Shown: in pieces, positions 3,639 to 32,472 of the stretch
Numbering within the stretch: the first letter of the stretch is position 1
Layout: each line of letters begins with the position of its first letter
Source of the DNA: Clostridia bacterium
GTDB lineage: Bacteria > Bacillota > Clostridia > Oscillospirales > Acutalibacteraceae
Assembly (NCBI GenBank): GCA_017416765.1
Contig: JAFQBE010000013.1
Span: forward strand, 155,854 to 219,853
DNA: 64,000 bases
Direction: 5' to 3'
Program-made: the position numbers and the translations under genes
Notes under the pieces: model-generated
Seen by the model: only the letters and a program-made list of their open reading frames with translations
What the model was told of the DNA's origin: nothing
Databases searched by the model: none

Positions 3639-4550
3639 ATGGATAAACAAGCCATTGGAAAATTTATTGCAGAACAACGAAAAGCAAAACAGCTTACTCA
3701 AAAGCAACTTGCGGATAAATTGAATGTTACTGACAAAGCTGTTTCGAAATGGGAAACAGGAAAATGCTACCCCGATGTTGAAACGCTTGAACGATTGAGT
3801 AATTTTTTCGATGTTACTGTAAACGATGTTTTATACGGCAGAATCCTGAGCCAAAACAACATAGCCGAAGAAGCCGATAAAAACATTCTTCCTCATATAA
3901 AAAAAGCCCGAAAGCAAAATAAATATAGAATTATTGTAATCTGCATTGTTATGTGTCCCTTAACTTTATATTTTCTTTTTTGTATGTTAAAGTTTACAAA
4001 TATTATTCCAAGTTTTTTTGCAGATACGGCAGAAGTCAACGGCTTGCAGATTACTTATTATCAGCCGTTCAACACAGCTTTTGCAGGAAGATACAGCCCT
4101 ACACTATACACCGACAACTTCGAAATAACCGTCCCCGATGAATATAACAATATACCGATTGAAAAACTCGGTGGACTTTCAGGCAATAGTAAAGCTCCGT
4201 TTTGTATTGATATATCGGATTTATATATGAACACCGATAAAAATAGCGAATATAATGCAATCTACCGTAGTGATACTCTTACGCCTAATGCAATCGAAGA
4301 AAATATCAGCATACAAAATGTTGTTTTCAGGCTGAACATAGGTGAAAATATCAAAGAAATAGAATATGTTGATATGGATGAATATTATCCACATTTAAAC
4401 AAAAACGGCACCGTAACTTTTTACCATCCGGTTGTTGAAATATACTGTTCTGAAGATAACGAACATTTTTATTCAAAAGACGGAAAACTTTACAACAAAG
4501 CAACCAAGGAATTAATAACAGATTTTGCATACAGCTATATTGGCAAATAA
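3639..4550 (+). CDS. HTH (Cro/C1-type) regulator with membrane anchor and extracytoplasmic domain
   Basis: Residues 1-65 form an XRE helix-turn-helix (LTQKQLADKLNVTDKAVSKW). After a basic linker there is one membrane segment at about residues 100-128, then a 175-residue hydrophilic tail. The layout suggests a DNA-binding protein tethered to the membrane that senses an outside signal (inference). ATG 3639 follows AAAGGAGATG. A bidirectional terminator follows. Confidence 0.75.
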   Translation: MDKQAIGKFIAEQRKAKQLTQKQLADKLNVTDKAVSKWETGKCYPDVETLERLSNFFDVTVNDVLYGRILSQNNIAEEADKNILPHIKKARKQNKYRIIVICIVMCPLTLYFLFCMLKFTNIIPSFFADTAEVNGLQITYYQPFNTAFAGRYSPTLYTDNFEITVPDEYNNIPIEKLGGLSGNSKAPFCIDISDLYMNTDKNSEYNAIYRSDTLTPNAIEENISIQNVVFRLNIGENIKEIEYVDMDEYYPHLNKNGTVTFYHPVVEIYCSEDNEHFYSKDGKLYNKATKELITDFAYSYIGK

Positions 4551-4590
4551 CATAAAAGGCACTTCCGTTTTAAGGAAAGTGCCTTTTATG
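4551..4590. terminator. Bidirectional terminator between convergent genes
   Basis: CATAAAAGGCACTT pairs with AAAGTGCCTTTTATG. A and T runs on both sides let it work for the HTH gene on the plus strand and for the small gene on the minus strand, whose stop codon lies inside it. Confidence 0.8.
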
Positions 4591-4786
4591 TTGCAAAAAT
4601 ATACAGCAGCATCATTATCAGCATCATATCCGATTTGTCTGTTGCAAGTATAAGTATAAGCCCCAGAAGCAATAACGAATCGTCATCGGGCGCGTAACTT
4701 TTTTTCTTCTGCGGCTGTATCCTGCGCAAGTGTACATCGCATATTTTTGCTGCCTGCTGCTGCATTTGCCTGAGTTCTTTGTCCAT
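4586..4786 (-). CDS. Small membrane-associated protein of unknown function
   Basis: This 66-residue protein has a charged N-terminal half with KKK and a hydrophobic C-terminal half (LLLLGLILILAT, MMLIMMLLYIFAT), so it is probably membrane-bound. AGGTGATTT precedes the ATG. It appears to be the last member of a minus-strand cluster with the two genes at 4949-5502, now separated from them by a repeat element. Not recognised as a named family. Confidence 0.55.
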   Translation of the reverse strand: MDKELRQMQQQAAKICDVHLRRIQPQKKKSYAPDDDSLLLLGLILILATDKSDMMLIMMLLYIFAT

Positions 4787-4799
4787 AAATCACCTGCTT

Positions 4800-4950
4800 A
4801 AATTACAGTTTATCTGTCTGATGACAGATAAAAATTATGAATTAGGAATTATGAATTAGGAATTGATGGCGGGACACCCGCACCCGAATATAAATGGGTG
4901 TGGGCGAAGCCCACCCTTTAATTCCTAATTGGTTCGACAAACTGTAATTT
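4800..4950. repeat. Palindromic intergenic element A (AATTAGGAATT-type arms)
   Basis: A 151-bp element is bounded by AAATTACAGTTT (4800-4811) and its exact inverted copy AAACTGTAATTT (4939-4950). Inside lie an ATCTGTC/GACAGAT hairpin, arms built from ATTAGGAATTATGA on the left and AATTCCTAATT on the right, and a core with GGCGGGACACCCGCACCCG and GGGTGTGGGCGAAGCCCACC. It is one of nine related elements in the window. Confidence 0.85.
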
Positions 4951-5281
4951 ACATAAAATCTTTAACTATCGGCAGCACATCCAGCAGCCGCATTATCTGC
5001 ATTGCTTCGTCTGCTTTTCTTCTTCGATGAGGGCTGAGCAGAGGCTTGAGCGCACAGATAAGCCGCGTGCGCTCGTTATCGCCGCCGCTTTGAAGCAAAG
5101 GCATGAGCTGCATTATTTTTGCAATCATCGCAGGGTCAATGCTGCCGAAAAAATCGGTTGCATTTTCTTTTTTATCTCCGCCGTTATCTCCGCCCAGAAG
5201 TTGCTGTGCCGCGCTGCTTAAATTTGCCATATCCTCATCGCTTAACGAAGACAATATTCCCGAAATATCATCAAAATTCAT
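4949..5281 (-). CDS. Conserved small protein, function unknown
   Basis: This 110-residue, Asp/Leu/Met-rich helical protein has no recognised catalytic motif. Its ATG overlaps the stop of the upstream gene by four bases (ATGA at 5278-5281), indicating translational coupling. Its stop codon lies at the very edge of element A, so the element inserted immediately 3' of it. Function not recognised. Confidence 0.65.
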   Translation of the reverse strand: MNFDDISGILSSLSDEDMANLSSAAQQLLGGDNGGDKKENATDFFGSIDPAMIAKIMQLMPLLQSGGDNERTRLICALKPLLSPHRRRKADEAMQIMRLLDVLPIVKDFM

Positions 5282-5502
5282 TTCTGACCGCCCAGTTTTC
5301 TCATCAGCTCCTGTGCCTGCGGGCTTTTCAGCAAATTTTCAAGCGCATTTTTATCCCGCAGTATGCTTTCCACGCGCCGACGCTGCTCGGGCGAAATCCT
5401 GTTCTGCAAAAGGTCCTGTGCCACAGAGCCGTCGGGTGTGTTGCCCTTTGAATTCATAAGCAGCTTTAAAAGCTGGTCGGGTGAGAAATTGTTACCGCTC
5501 AT
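5278..5502 (-). CDS. Conserved small helical protein, function unknown
   Basis: This 74-residue protein contains LLKLLMNSK and ISPEQRRRVESILRDKNALENLL. ATG 5502 is chosen because GGCGGTGA lies at proper spacing; the in-frame GTG at 5511 is part of that ribosome site. It is divergently oriented to the phosphoesterase gene 60 bp away. Confidence 0.65.
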   Translation of the reverse strand: MSGNNFSPDQLLKLLMNSKGNTPDGSVAQDLLQNRISPEQRRRVESILRDKNALENLLKSPQAQELMRKLGGQK

Positions 5503-28523: not shown

Positions 28524-28644
28524 ACCCTTTTGCCATGCTGAAATTTATTATGTGTTATCATGATATATTTTATTTATGCCAATATCACAAAATATGATTT
28601 TTTTTAGGACAAAAACTTTATAATTAGCTAAAATCTCAAATCCG

Positions 28645-28673
28645 TTGACTTTCATAAACCCAAGTGCTATTAT
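28645..28673 (+). promoter_or_regulatory. Promoter of the FokI-type methylase gene
   Basis: TTGACT (28645-28650), 17 bp, then TATTAT (28668-28673) with a TG extended -10. Two GGATG sites (28682-28686 and 28692-28696) lie just downstream in the leader. Confidence 0.65.
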
Positions 28674-28710
28674 AATTACAAGGATGTTACGGGATGTGAG
28701 GTGCTAATTT

Positions 28711-30660
28711 GTGAGATTTATTGGTAGCAAAACAAGCTTACTTGAAAATATTGATATGGTTATATCGGAGAACACTACCGGAAATGAAAATATTTTTTGT
28801 GATATTTTTTCAGGCACCGGTGCGGTTGCGCGCTATTTTAAACCAAGGTATGAGGTGCATTCAAACGACGCCTTGCATTTTTCATATGTAATTCAAAAAG
28901 CAACAGTTGAAAACAATATCAAACCTTCTTTTTCAAAATTGCGAAACATCGGAATATTTGACCCATTTAAATTTTTAGAAGAAACTCAAATACAAATTTT
29001 AGATTACAATGATGATAATTATTTCATAACGAAAAATTATACTCCACACGATAATTGTGAAAGAATGTATGTGTCAAATAAGAATGCCGCAAGAATTGAT
29101 TTTATACGAAATACAATCGAAGCATGGAAAAAAGAGAATTTACTTACCGAATTAGAATATTATTATTTACTTGCCGGATTAATTGAGGGAGTTCCATCCG
29201 TTTCAAACATCACAGGTACATATGGTGCTTATTTAAAGCACTGGGACAAGCGCACTTTTAAAGATTTAGAAATGGCTCGGTTAGATGTCATTAACAATAA
29301 TAGAAATAATAAAAGCTATAACACGGATGCCAATAAACTGATTGAGGAAATAAGTGGAGATATTTTATATCTAGACCCACCGTATAACTCTCGTCAATAT
29401 GCTCCTAATTATCATTTTCTTGAAACAATTTCAAAATACGATTATCCCGAAATTCGCGGAGTAACAGGAATGAGACAGTATGATGACTTAAAATCGCCAT
29501 TCTGTATAAAAAATGAAGTTTATGATGCATTTGAAGACTTAATAAGTAAAGCAAATTTCAGTAATATTGTAATGAGTTACAGCACAGATGGTTTAATGAC
29601 TTCAGATAAAATCGAAAAAACATTAAAAAAATACGGGATAGAAGAAACCTATAAAATGTATTCAATTCCATATAGACAATATATGAGTAAAAAAACAAAG
29701 CAAACGGAATGTCTATATGAATATATTTTTTTCATCAAAAAAAATATACCTATAAAATCAACCTTTGATTTTATAGGTATGCCAAGCGATATAAAGCCTA
29801 TTATTTCCGATACAAAAAAATATATAAAGAGTCCCTTAAACTACATAGGTGGAAAATATAAATTGCTTCCTCAAATTTTACCACACTTTCCCAACTACAT
29901 TGGCACTTTTGTTGATTTATTTTCAGGCGGCTGTAATGTTGCTATAAATGTAAGTGCAAACAGAATTATTTGTAATGACATAAACAAAAAAATCACTGAA
30001 CTATTTGAAGTATTTAAAAACACAGAATTATCTGAAATATTATATCAAATAAAAAGTCGTATAACCGAATATGAACTTTCAAAAGAAAATGAAGAAGGTT
30101 TTAAAAGATTTAGAGATTTTTACAATTTAACACAAAATCCGATTGATTTATATACTTTAGCTTGTTATTCCTTTAATTATCAATTTAGATTTAATAACGA
30201 TTTAGAGTATAATAATCCTTTTGGCAGAAACAGAAGTCAATTTTCGGACAACATGGAACATAACTTGATTTCATTTGTTTCAAAGCTCCAAAAACTAAAT
30301 GTTGAGTTTTCAAGTAAAGATTTCACACAAATATCGCTGGATAATCTTACTCCTGAAGATTTCATTTATTGCGATCCACCTTATTTTATAACAACAGGAA
30401 CATATAATGACGGAAATCGAGGTTTTAAGGATTGGAAAGCAGAACAGGAATATGCTTTATATGATTATTTAGACAGAGCGGATAAAAAAGGCATCAAATT
30501 TGCCTTGTCAAATGTTGTTCAGCATAAAGGGAAAGTCAATGAGATACTGCTTGATTGGGCAAAAAAATACACGGTTATTGATTTGAACTATAATTATTCA
30601 AACTCAAGTTATAATACGAAGAAAGGAGAAAGCAGAGAAGTTTTAATAATAAACTATTGA
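28711..30660 (+). CDS. FokI-type fused DNA adenine methyltransferase
   Basis: The 649-residue protein contains two D12-class adenine methylase domains in tandem. The first has FIGSK, FSGTGAVA (33-40) and DPPY (222-225); the second has NYIGGKYKLL, DLFSGGCNV (402-410) and DPPY (555-558). M.FokI has the same fusion and length, each half methylating one strand of GGATG/CATCC (family knowledge). The GTG start at 28711 has GAGGTG eight bases upstream. It is visibly more AT-rich than its neighbours, suggesting transfer. The endonuclease gene follows after 13 bp. Confidence 0.93.
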   Translation: MRFIGSKTSLLENIDMVISENTTGNENIFCDIFSGTGAVARYFKPRYEVHSNDALHFSYVIQKATVENNIKPSFSKLRNIGIFDPFKFLEETQIQILDYNDDNYFITKNYTPHDNCERMYVSNKNAARIDFIRNTIEAWKKENLLTELEYYYLLAGLIEGVPSVSNITGTYGAYLKHWDKRTFKDLEMARLDVINNNRNNKSYNTDANKLIEEISGDILYLDPPYNSRQYAPNYHFLETISKYDYPEIRGVTGMRQYDDLKSPFCIKNEVYDAFEDLISKANFSNIVMSYSTDGLMTSDKIEKTLKKYGIEETYKMYSIPYRQYMSKKTKQTECLYEYIFFIKKNIPIKSTFDFIGMPSDIKPIISDTKKYIKSPLNYIGGKYKLLPQILPHFPNYIGTFVDLFSGGCNVAINVSANRIICNDINKKITELFEVFKNTELSEILYQIKSRITEYELSKENEEGFKRFRDFYNLTQNPIDLYTLACYSFNYQFRFNNDLEYNNPFGRNRSQFSDNMEHNLISFVSKLQKLNVEFSSKDFTQISLDNLTPEDFIYCDPPYFITTGTYNDGNRGFKDWKAEQEYALYDYLDRADKKGIKFALSNVVQHKGKVNEILLDWAKKYTVIDLNYNYSNSSYNTKKGESREVLIINY

Positions 30661-30673
30661 TGCTGATAAAATT

Positions 30674-32446
30674 ATGATTTCTGTAATTCCGACACATAAT
30701 AAAAACTTTCGTGCTTTTGGTTGGGTACAAGACCCAAGTAATTTGCGTAGTCTTTGCGATGTTGTTGCTGTTTTTGACACAAATTCACAAAAGAATAAAG
30801 ACTTGATAAAAACCATCATTCCAAAACTTGTTGAAGAGCGTGATGGGCGTGATGATTTTATAAATGCACTGCAGAGCAAACCACTAAAAATCAAATATTG
30901 TCAACTTGTAGGCACATCTTTCACTCCAAGAAGCATGTCAAGGTGTAACGGTATTATACAAGCAACGGTGAAAGGTCAAGGACGAGATTTTATAGGAGAT
31001 TGGCCTGCTGATAATTTTGTTCGTTGGGCTCATTGTTTCGGATTTATAAAATATGATTATACAGACGATACATTTGAAATAACAAATAAAGGATTAGAGC
31101 TTACAAGGGCAAGAGGAACAGACGAAACTCTTTCTGAAAAAGAAAAAGAATTGCTTATAGATGCCGTTTTAGCATATCCACCGGCTATAAGAATATTAAC
31201 CCTGCTTTCAGAAACAGAAGACACTCATCTTACTAAATTCGAAATAGGACAGCAATTAGGTTTTATAGGTGAAGATGGTTTTACAAGCATGCCTCAAAAA
31301 ATCTTTATTAGGTCTCTATCAAATGCAGACGTAAAAGAACGTAAAAGTATGAAGGCTGATTGGGAAGGCTCATCGGATAAATATGCTCGAATGATTGCGA
31401 GTTGGCTAGAAAAGCTTGGTCTTGTTGAAAAAGCTCCTAAAACGATTACAATTTTATGTACCGGAAAAGAATATACAGAAACAATAGGTCAAGCCTATGT
31501 CATTACAGCAAAAGGCATTACGGCATTAAGAAAAGCTAATGGTAAAAGCAAGCATAAAAAAATTTCAAAAAATGTATGTTGGGAAATGTTATCAACTAAA
31601 GGTGCAGACAGAGAATATTTACGAACACGCCGTGCATTTATTTTAAAATATCTGTCTGAAAACAAAACTATCGTTTCGGTTTTGGAGATTTCAGATTATC
31701 TTAAAACTGTTAATCTTAATGTAAGTGAAAATACTATCTTGGACGATATAAAAGGCTTGCAGAATATAGGCATAAATATATTAGACAGAGGTAATAGTTT
31801 TTTGTTTGATGATGAAATTAATGACTTCAGTATTCCATTGCCTCAATCACTTACAAAGTCTGATTTAGCGGAAACAAAAGAAATAATCAGGGATAAATTA
31901 TCAAATCTATCACATGAATATTTAGCGCTTATAGACCTTGCTTATGATAGTAAGCAAAATCGATTATTTGAAATTAAAACTTTAGACCTACTGACTGAAG
32001 AATGCGATTATCAAGGATTGCATCTCGGCGGAAGCCGCAAGCCTGATGGTATAATTTATACAAATACCGAAACAAGTAAATATGGTGTCATTATAGATAC
32101 AAAAGCATATTCAAAAGGTTATAATTTGCCTATTTCGCAAGCCGACGAAATGGAAAGGTATATAGGTGAAAATCAAACAAGAAATGAAAAAATCAACCCT
32201 AATAAATGGTGGGAACATTTTGCTGATGATATAAATGATTTCTATTTTATGTTTATTTCTGGCCATTTTACAGGAAACTTTAAATCACAAATAGAAAGAA
32301 TCAGCAAAAACAAAAGTACAAACGGGACTGCTTTAGCCGTTTCTAACCTTTTGCTATGTGCAGAAAAATATAAGGCTGGTCAAATTACACACGAAACAAT
32401 TAAAAACATAATGTTTAATAATGCAGAATTTATTTTTAACAATTAA
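30674..32446 (+). CDS. FokI-like type IIS restriction endonuclease
   Basis: The 590-residue protein is collinear with FokI. The N-terminal recognition part has RAFGWVQDPSNL, NGIIQATVKGQG, RWAHCFGFIKY, YPPAIRILTLLSE and WEGSSDKYARMIASWLEKLG. The C-terminal nuclease has GLHLGGSRKPDGIIYT and YGVIIDTKAYSKGYNLP. The catalytic triad maps to D458, D475 and K477, with the same 17 and 2 spacing as FokI D450, D467, K469. It should bind GGATG and cut 9/13 bases away (inference from homology). No strong ribosome site is seen; coupling to the methylase is likely. AT-rich like the methylase. Confidence 0.95.
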   Translation: MISVIPTHNKNFRAFGWVQDPSNLRSLCDVVAVFDTNSQKNKDLIKTIIPKLVEERDGRDDFINALQSKPLKIKYCQLVGTSFTPRSMSRCNGIIQATVKGQGRDFIGDWPADNFVRWAHCFGFIKYDYTDDTFEITNKGLELTRARGTDETLSEKEKELLIDAVLAYPPAIRILTLLSETEDTHLTKFEIGQQLGFIGEDGFTSMPQKIFIRSLSNADVKERKSMKADWEGSSDKYARMIASWLEKLGLVEKAPKTITILCTGKEYTETIGQAYVITAKGITALRKANGKSKHKKISKNVCWEMLSTKGADREYLRTRRAFILKYLSENKTIVSVLEISDYLKTVNLNVSENTILDDIKGLQNIGINILDRGNSFLFDDEINDFSIPLPQSLTKSDLAETKEIIRDKLSNLSHEYLALIDLAYDSKQNRLFEIKTLDLLTEECDYQGLHLGGSRKPDGIIYTNTETSKYGVIIDTKAYSKGYNLPISQADEMERYIGENQTRNEKINPNKWWEHFADDINDFYFMFISGHFTGNFKSQIERISKNKSTNGTALAVSNLLLCAEKYKAGQITHETIKNIMFNNAEFIFNN

Positions 32447-32472
32447 TGTAAATATATTAAGGAGGTTGTTCA

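Follow-up and report, generated by a model that had tools for sequence, protein, structure and literature searches.

We analyzed a window of 64,000 nt from a Clostridia bacterium of the Acutalibacteraceae (contig JAFQBE010000013.1) and focused on a restriction–modification (R-M) operon at 28711-32446, consisting of a methylase gene (M) and a nuclease gene (R), and on two GGATG sites directly ahead of M. A first-pass annotation, made from the letters of the DNA, had described this stretch as a complete FokI-type R-M system, and the Pfam, Protein Data Bank (PDB) and locus comparisons agree with that description. The features of the locus are as follows (positions refer to the window).

28645..28673, + strand: putative sigma-70 promoter of the operon, TTGACT-17-TATTAT with TG ahead of the -10 element, 10/12 matches
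28682..28686, + strand: first GGATG of the tandem pair (site 1), 8 bases past the putative -10
28692..28696, + strand: second GGATG (site 2), exactly 10 bases from site 1, with 14 bases between it and the GTG start
28711..30660, + strand: M gene, fused two-domain N6-adenine methyltransferase of the M.FokI type, 649 amino acids, GTG start
30674..32446, + strand: R gene, FokI-type type IIS endonuclease, 590 amino acids, with PF02981, PF02980, PF16902 and PF09254 above cut-off
31859..32425, + strand: FokI cleavage domain in R, residues 396-584 with D458/D475/K477 (PF09254, 254.6 bits; 1fok/2fok alignment)

M and R are co-directional with 13 bases between them in the open reading frame (ORF) list of the window. 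R lies above the curated Pfam cut-offs for all four domains, which occur in order (D1 157.7, D2 182.4, D3 78.4 and cleavage domain 254.6 bits), and solved FokI (1fok/2fok) aligns with it over residues 12-587 (E ~4e-158, 46% identity), so that the proposed collinearity with FokI through recognition and cleavage domains holds. The PD-D-xK catalytic residues are present: FokI D450/D467/K469 align with D458/D475/K477 of R at identical spacing (counted on the 2fok alignment), as had been suggested. M was likewise correctly recognized as a two-domain fusion with two DPPY motifs. It shows two D12-class stretches (PF02086, 257 bits; TIGR00571 on 373-648), which correspond to an N domain (~1-345) and a C domain (~368-649) with one DPPY each (D222-Y225 and D555-Y558), and along its entire length it shares 55-56% identity with the methylase adjoining FokI in Planomicrobium okeanokoites IFO 12536 (locus L050 of our comparison). 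As a candidate for a C-protein controller, no + strand ORF of at least 80 amino acids other than M and R was found within 28711-32446; the lone minus-strand ORF within the operon span has 83 amino acids (30643-30894). An N-terminal helix-turn-helix of the M.SsoII type was not found either: no extra domain lies ahead of the methylase, and the PF02086 match begins at M residue 3. We also observed a hairpin of 16-17 bp with a loop of 3 (29746-29780) in the stretch of M that encodes the inter-domain linker; no counterpart as strong is present in the 24 other loci shown, in which the longest has 11 bp.

The leader upstream of M, past the promoter, contains both GGATG sites and reads AAGGATGTTACGGGATGTG. 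GGATG-N5-GGATG (28682-28696) places two FokI sites one helical turn apart and, presuming GGATG specificity, puts the system's own recognition site within the control region of its methylase. The pair begins 29 bases before 28711, the start coordinate of the first-pass annotation, and is absent from that account. In the assembly (2.77 Mb, 47 contigs) the pattern occurs once, in the M leader, and a reversed control pattern does not occur at all. The scanned region contains seven such promoter sites, of which this is the sole one with the TG; the scan yields no more sites than shuffles, and the promoter call rests on position.

For comparison we compiled 107 loci whose methylase N domain is complete to the start. 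L001, L004, L005, L094, L261-L263 and L265 (repeats or pattern hits) as well as the viral pattern loci L095-L214 were left out by hand, and L046, in which the M match begins at residue 28, stands outside the table. The exact pair on the methylase strand was observed in 56 of the 107 leaders, beginning 20-34 bases before the methylase start; each pair in the 92 loci listed sits just ahead of a same-strand methylase gene, the copy in L006 being tied to the methylase start. When a FokI-type R is accompanied by a fused methylase, 53 of 55 leaders carry the pair, FokI's own included, and none of 21 do when it is accompanied by two separate methylases. Where the N half alone was recognized beside a FokI-type R, the pair is found in one of five loci (L264), which is a cut stretch of the L006 genome, cannot show fusion and is the sole pair-bearing FokI-type row outside the 53. 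Among loci with a nuclease unrelated to FokI (X471-type) we found the pair in 2 of 16 (fused 1/1, separate 1/10, N half alone 0/5), and among those with another or no recognized R in none of 10. The rows without a pair in which the N half alone was recognized (4 FokI-type, 5 X471-type) include L088, a 645-amino-acid ORF that could represent a fusion whose second half has diverged. The N domains of pair-bearing methylases are down to ~41% identical to that of M in the window. Some rows are near-copies (e.g. L009/L079, L083/L093 and L229/L230), and the 56 pair-bearing leaders comprise 52 distinct 40-base leaders. Own-site repeats like the pair were not found in AlwI-type, HNH/GATG-type and separate-methylase leaders (L215-L226) except in L216 and L226. 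In the 51 leaders with no pair the best match at N5 spacing reached 7/10 in five, 8/10 in three and 9/10 in one, and the matches of 8-9/10 may reflect weaker versions of the pair or coincidence. For L022 a decayed pair was considered and rejected, its best match of 7/10 bases being chance-like, as 9 of these 51 leaders reach at least 7.

The 56 pair-bearing loci together comprise 560,599 bases, in which ~0.45 GGATG-GGATG pairs are expected per spacing. We counted 56 at N5 and at most 4 at each of the other spacings from 0 to 35; the remaining 51 methylase loci contain no N5 pair. These 56 loci were picked for the N5 pair, and the fair test consists of the other spacings in all 107 leaders: two GGATG at most 60 bases apart at another spacing, in a leader lacking the N5 pair, were seen in 0 of 107, and a third GGATG in addition to the N5 pair in 5. 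That the site letters do not vary among pair-bearing leaders follows from the search pattern and was not used as evidence; the spacer is variable, with 23 distinct 15-mers among 56. A protein-blind search for AAGGATG-N5-GGATGTG in 398 family genomes returned 5 matches, 4 of them being the genomes that have a strong FokI-type nuclease, each of these in a methylase leader, while the fifth (G781, L263) has no methylase within the 3 kb fetched. Viral matches to the leader pattern, at least 120 stretches, gave one weak M match (26% identity) and none to R and were taken as chance.

Next, we compared the position of the pair with that of both genes. In 14 loci R lies apart from M, and in 13 of them the 160 bases ahead of R (38 bases available in L227) contain neither GGATG nor CATCC. 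The exception, L006, is divergent, with one site of the M pair and a single CATCC before R. Where R is apart from M, the pair sits at M and not at R. In two loci, L216 on a Psychrobacter plasmid with a fused M and L234 on a viral contig with separate methylases, the pair is combined with a partner of 465-471 amino acids that has no BLAST relation to FokI and matches PADLOC PDLC03445, a type II enzyme. Close homologues of the L216 partner in L217 (77%) and L218 (64%) occur with separate methylases, in reversed order and with no pair. Most FokI-type nucleases with separate methylases retain the R recognition residues (24 aligned) though their loci have no pair. As the pair is shared with a second nuclease family and absent from FokI-type loci with separate methylases, we conclude that it follows the methylase rather than the nuclease.

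The second nuclease family is an observation in its own right. Its members have ~460-470 amino acids, show PD...EGK in the closer members and occur alongside FokI-type methylases on plasmids and viral contigs; PDLC03445 was matched by two scanned, and the three scanned against Pfam gave no match. The members are:

L216:4793-6205
L217:4762-6162
L218:3741-5153
L235:2611-3984
L234:2522-3916 (-)
L233:2543-3913 and 3947-5353 (-), two copies

We infer the GGATG specificity of the window system from its likeness to FokI, and independent support comes from the pair itself, because the only GGATG-N5-GGATG of the assembly sits in the M leader, as in the FokI locus. R keeps Q, R, Q, W, E, K and R at FokI positions 12, 79, 95, 105, 220, 225 and 228, which together with position 217 we take to be recognition residues. 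At two positions R departs from FokI, N13 being replaced by D and N217 by A. FokI N13Y is described as binding-deficient in the available text of PMC4081073. Position 13 in 49 aligned pair-bearing nucleases is D in 25, N in 23 and E in 1; since the D-bearing systems share the GGATG pair with FokI, whose known site is GGATG, a D at position 13 probably still permits GGATG recognition. In the 64 kb window we counted 28 GGATG and 27 CATCC, where dinucleotide frequencies predict 40 and 45 (a higher-order expectation 33 and 47), a mild deficit that was not used as support.

The surroundings of the operon support the suggestion of the first-pass annotation that it was acquired by transfer. The relevant interval is:

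28524..32472, strand not applicable: interval from an ATP-binding cassette (ABC)-transporter gene to a kinase gene, holding the inserted R-M operon (comparison of congener loci)

G+C content is 29.6% in M and 33.1% in R compared to 45.0% and 46.0% in the two flanking genes, and at third codon positions 24% and 22% compared to 47% and 51%, so that both genes are indeed richer in AT than their neighbors. Among 11 genus genomes the kinase is present in 8, our own included, and in 7 of 7 congener loci the transporter and kinase genes adjoin directly in divergent orientation, ~110-170 bp apart, with no match to M or R. As the flanking genes adjoin in this way, the operon was inserted here, and the empty site together with the G+C contrast supports acquisition of the FokI-type operon by horizontal transfer. 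The FokI cleavage domain is also absent from all 6 other genus genomes listed in the family sample.

R itself is an ordinary FokI-type nuclease, one among many. Counted by genome the FokI cleavage domain is rare, being found in 3 of 398 genomes of a phylum sample and in 6 of 398 of a family sample, our own genome in both. A single scan of the species-genome collection nevertheless yielded 91 relatives, the best 80 of which are 37-82% identical, and the record titles name Bacillota, Spirochaetota, Bacteroidota, Poribacteria, Pseudomonadota and others; plasmid copies are already annotated by NCBI as FokI-domain proteins. The earlier expectation that this homologue would broaden the sequence space of FokI is thus weak, with 91 relatives from a single scan and the nearest at 82%. 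No relatives of R were found in the viral scan or in phage records. Some relatives deserve mention on their own. In L047, L048 and L049 (Poribacteria) and L088 (Zixiibacteriota) FokI-type nucleases 44-48% identical to R stand near a methylase recognized as an N-terminal half only. A short gene of Staphylococcus plasmids (L013:1544-2470 and plasmid hits H6-H13) covers the FokI recognition half only (query 13-308), ends in L013 beside an IS257-type transposase gene and looks like a remnant. L083 (a Coriobacteriaceae metagenome-assembled genome) and L093 (a Lapidilactobacillus isolate) hold near-identical R-M loci with R upstream of M, which reflects either recent transfer or contamination of the assembled genome.

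The layout of the pair is probably that of a self-control switch. We consider it likely that the window holds a transferred FokI-type operon recognizing GGATG/CATCC in which the pair is an operator that lets the methylase restrain expression of its own gene. The fused methylase would protect both strands, and the FokI homologue would cut, at a distance, DNA that lacks this methylation. A naive cell would offer unmethylated, free sites and the methylase would be made fast; once the genome is modified, the methylase would bind and/or methylate the pair and transcription would fall. The transcription start, the repression and the mode of reading are inferred from sequence in this scheme. Given the choice between joint occupation of both in-phase sites by the two linked methylase domains and the sensing of methyl groups by RNA polymerase, we lean towards the former. 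One protein spanning both sites is favored because N5 is fixed while the pair lies at varying distances from the start codon (5-19 in 48 leaders) and from the apparent -10 element (5-16); one -10 scoring placed the element 2 bases from site 1 in eleven leaders, which we think is a scoring error. Joint binding and a methylation effect may both act. Extended to the family, the pair would be a conserved autoregulatory operator of fused GGATG methylases in Bacillota, Spirochaetota, Pseudomonadota and plasmid or viral contigs, with two unrelated nuclease families, and one methylase would clamp both sites as a bivalent repressor; we hold this wider statement to be possible, at somewhat less than an even chance.

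Several observations weigh against the operator. L022 and L090 have a fused methylase and a FokI-type R but no pair; L046, with no pair and with R in two ORFs, is a milder objection. The pair is missing from 14 of the 16 X471-type loci, and its presence in L234 beside two separate methylases indicates that fusion is not strictly required. On a tree of the methylase N domains (102 rows, calculated without the copies L249, L250, L264, L037 and L029) the pair needs 4 changes compared to a mean of 34 when shuffled; it is clustered and the loci are not independent. Finally, a -10 score was passed by 53 of 56 leaders but also by 60% of shuffled ones, so promoter calls in these AT-rich leaders are weak.

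The closest competitor is pure methylation sensing, in which N6-methyladenine at both sites, close to where transcription starts, makes RNA polymerase less active and a bound methylase is not needed, as in the mode of CfrBI and LlaDII. There is precedent for it, since the available text of PMC12707154 places CfrBI, AhdI and LlaDII under promoter methylation, a control it terms apparently rarely used, and the part of PMC3874152 at hand states that in some systems expression is governed by whether the cognate site within the modification promoter is methylated. In PMC6237814, as far as its text is available, a recognition site in the met promoter is said to sense methylation, with the 1989 FokI gene paper (its reference 17) as one of the works cited, so the idea that FokI senses itself has been raised before. 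However, sensing alone leaves unexplained the exact same-strand spacing of 10 bp, which is tighter than that to promoter or start codon, and the absence of the pair from all 21 FokI-type loci with separate methylases. We regard it as plausible, though less likely than not. A role in the mRNA is unlikely: start-stop micro-ORFs (ATG-TGA/TAA) or a Shine-Dalgarno-like element could control translation, as each GGATG contains an ATG and the second is directly followed by a stop codon in 31 of 48 leaders, but in 16 of the 48 no stop precedes the M start, in one it comes only after 4 codons, the distance from site to start ranges from 5 to 19, and what is conserved matches, letter for letter, the DNA site of FokI. 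The micro-ORF reading was dropped as not conserved over the 48 leaders. Still less probable, and in our view very unlikely, is that the pair is a target of the endonuclease, which would bind or cut when methylation fails and thereby block or destroy the methylase promoter. By coordinate arithmetic a FokI-like 9/13 cut (distances from the available text of PMC4081073) would fall within or just past site 2 when made from site 1 and just before the start codon when made from site 2. However, the pair also stands beside a nuclease unrelated to FokI (L216, L234) and is missing in 21 of 21 FokI-type loci with two separate methylases, and on these grounds the endonuclease was rejected as its reader. 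Chance or shared ancestry without function, for which the relatedness of the loci and the clustering on the tree would speak, can practically be dismissed in view of 56 pairs against ~0.45 expected, all in one place with exact sites beside a variable spacer, and of N domains diverged to ~41% identity.

The operator reading can be set beside known systems. The FokI system of P. okeanokoites (L050) shares the order M then R, the fused methylase (55%), the nuclease (46%), the domains, the catalytic residues and GGATG-N5-GGATG in the M leader; it differs in host, insertion site and N13/N217 (D/A in R of the window), and we found no qualitative difference. As proposed for the window system, CfrBI, LlaDII and AhdI have their own methylation at work in the region that controls the methylase gene (PMC12707154, available text), whereas the window system has two sites in a fixed 10-bp register, an asymmetric adenine-methylated site and a fused methylase, with the sites apparently at the transcription start and the layout present in dozens of related systems. 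LlaJI (GACGC, Lactococcus plasmid pNP40) resembles it in that its site is asymmetric, it has two methylase activities and a promoter probe fragment contains two of its own sites, but its 5-methylcytosine methylases are encoded by separate genes and its nuclease is McrBC-like (PMC1459862, in the portion available). MhoVII of Mycoplasma hominis has a fused adenine methylase pair for GATG/CATC, but in the accessible text of PMC12898733 no FokI-like catalytic motif was found in its nuclease and the authors report no own motifs in the promoter region. A published account of the N5 tandem geometry or of its conservation was not found in the literature searched, most subscription papers lying outside it.

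The system itself is ordinary; what merits the attention of specialists is the pair of conserved sites in front of the methylase. The FokI cleavage domain is used in many engineered nucleases, and self-control of the FokI system is little described in the literature searched. The conserved pair bears on how type IIS systems balance protection and attack after entry into a cell, and on why two methylases are fused. The leader pair also serves as a check of specificity from sequence, which here supports GGATG without a methylome. If the pair is indeed a conserved operator of the fused methylases, an enzyme with no added DNA-binding domain would be its own bivalent repressor and the two-domain fusion would gain a function, and leader repeats would allow specificities not yet known to be read from sequence.

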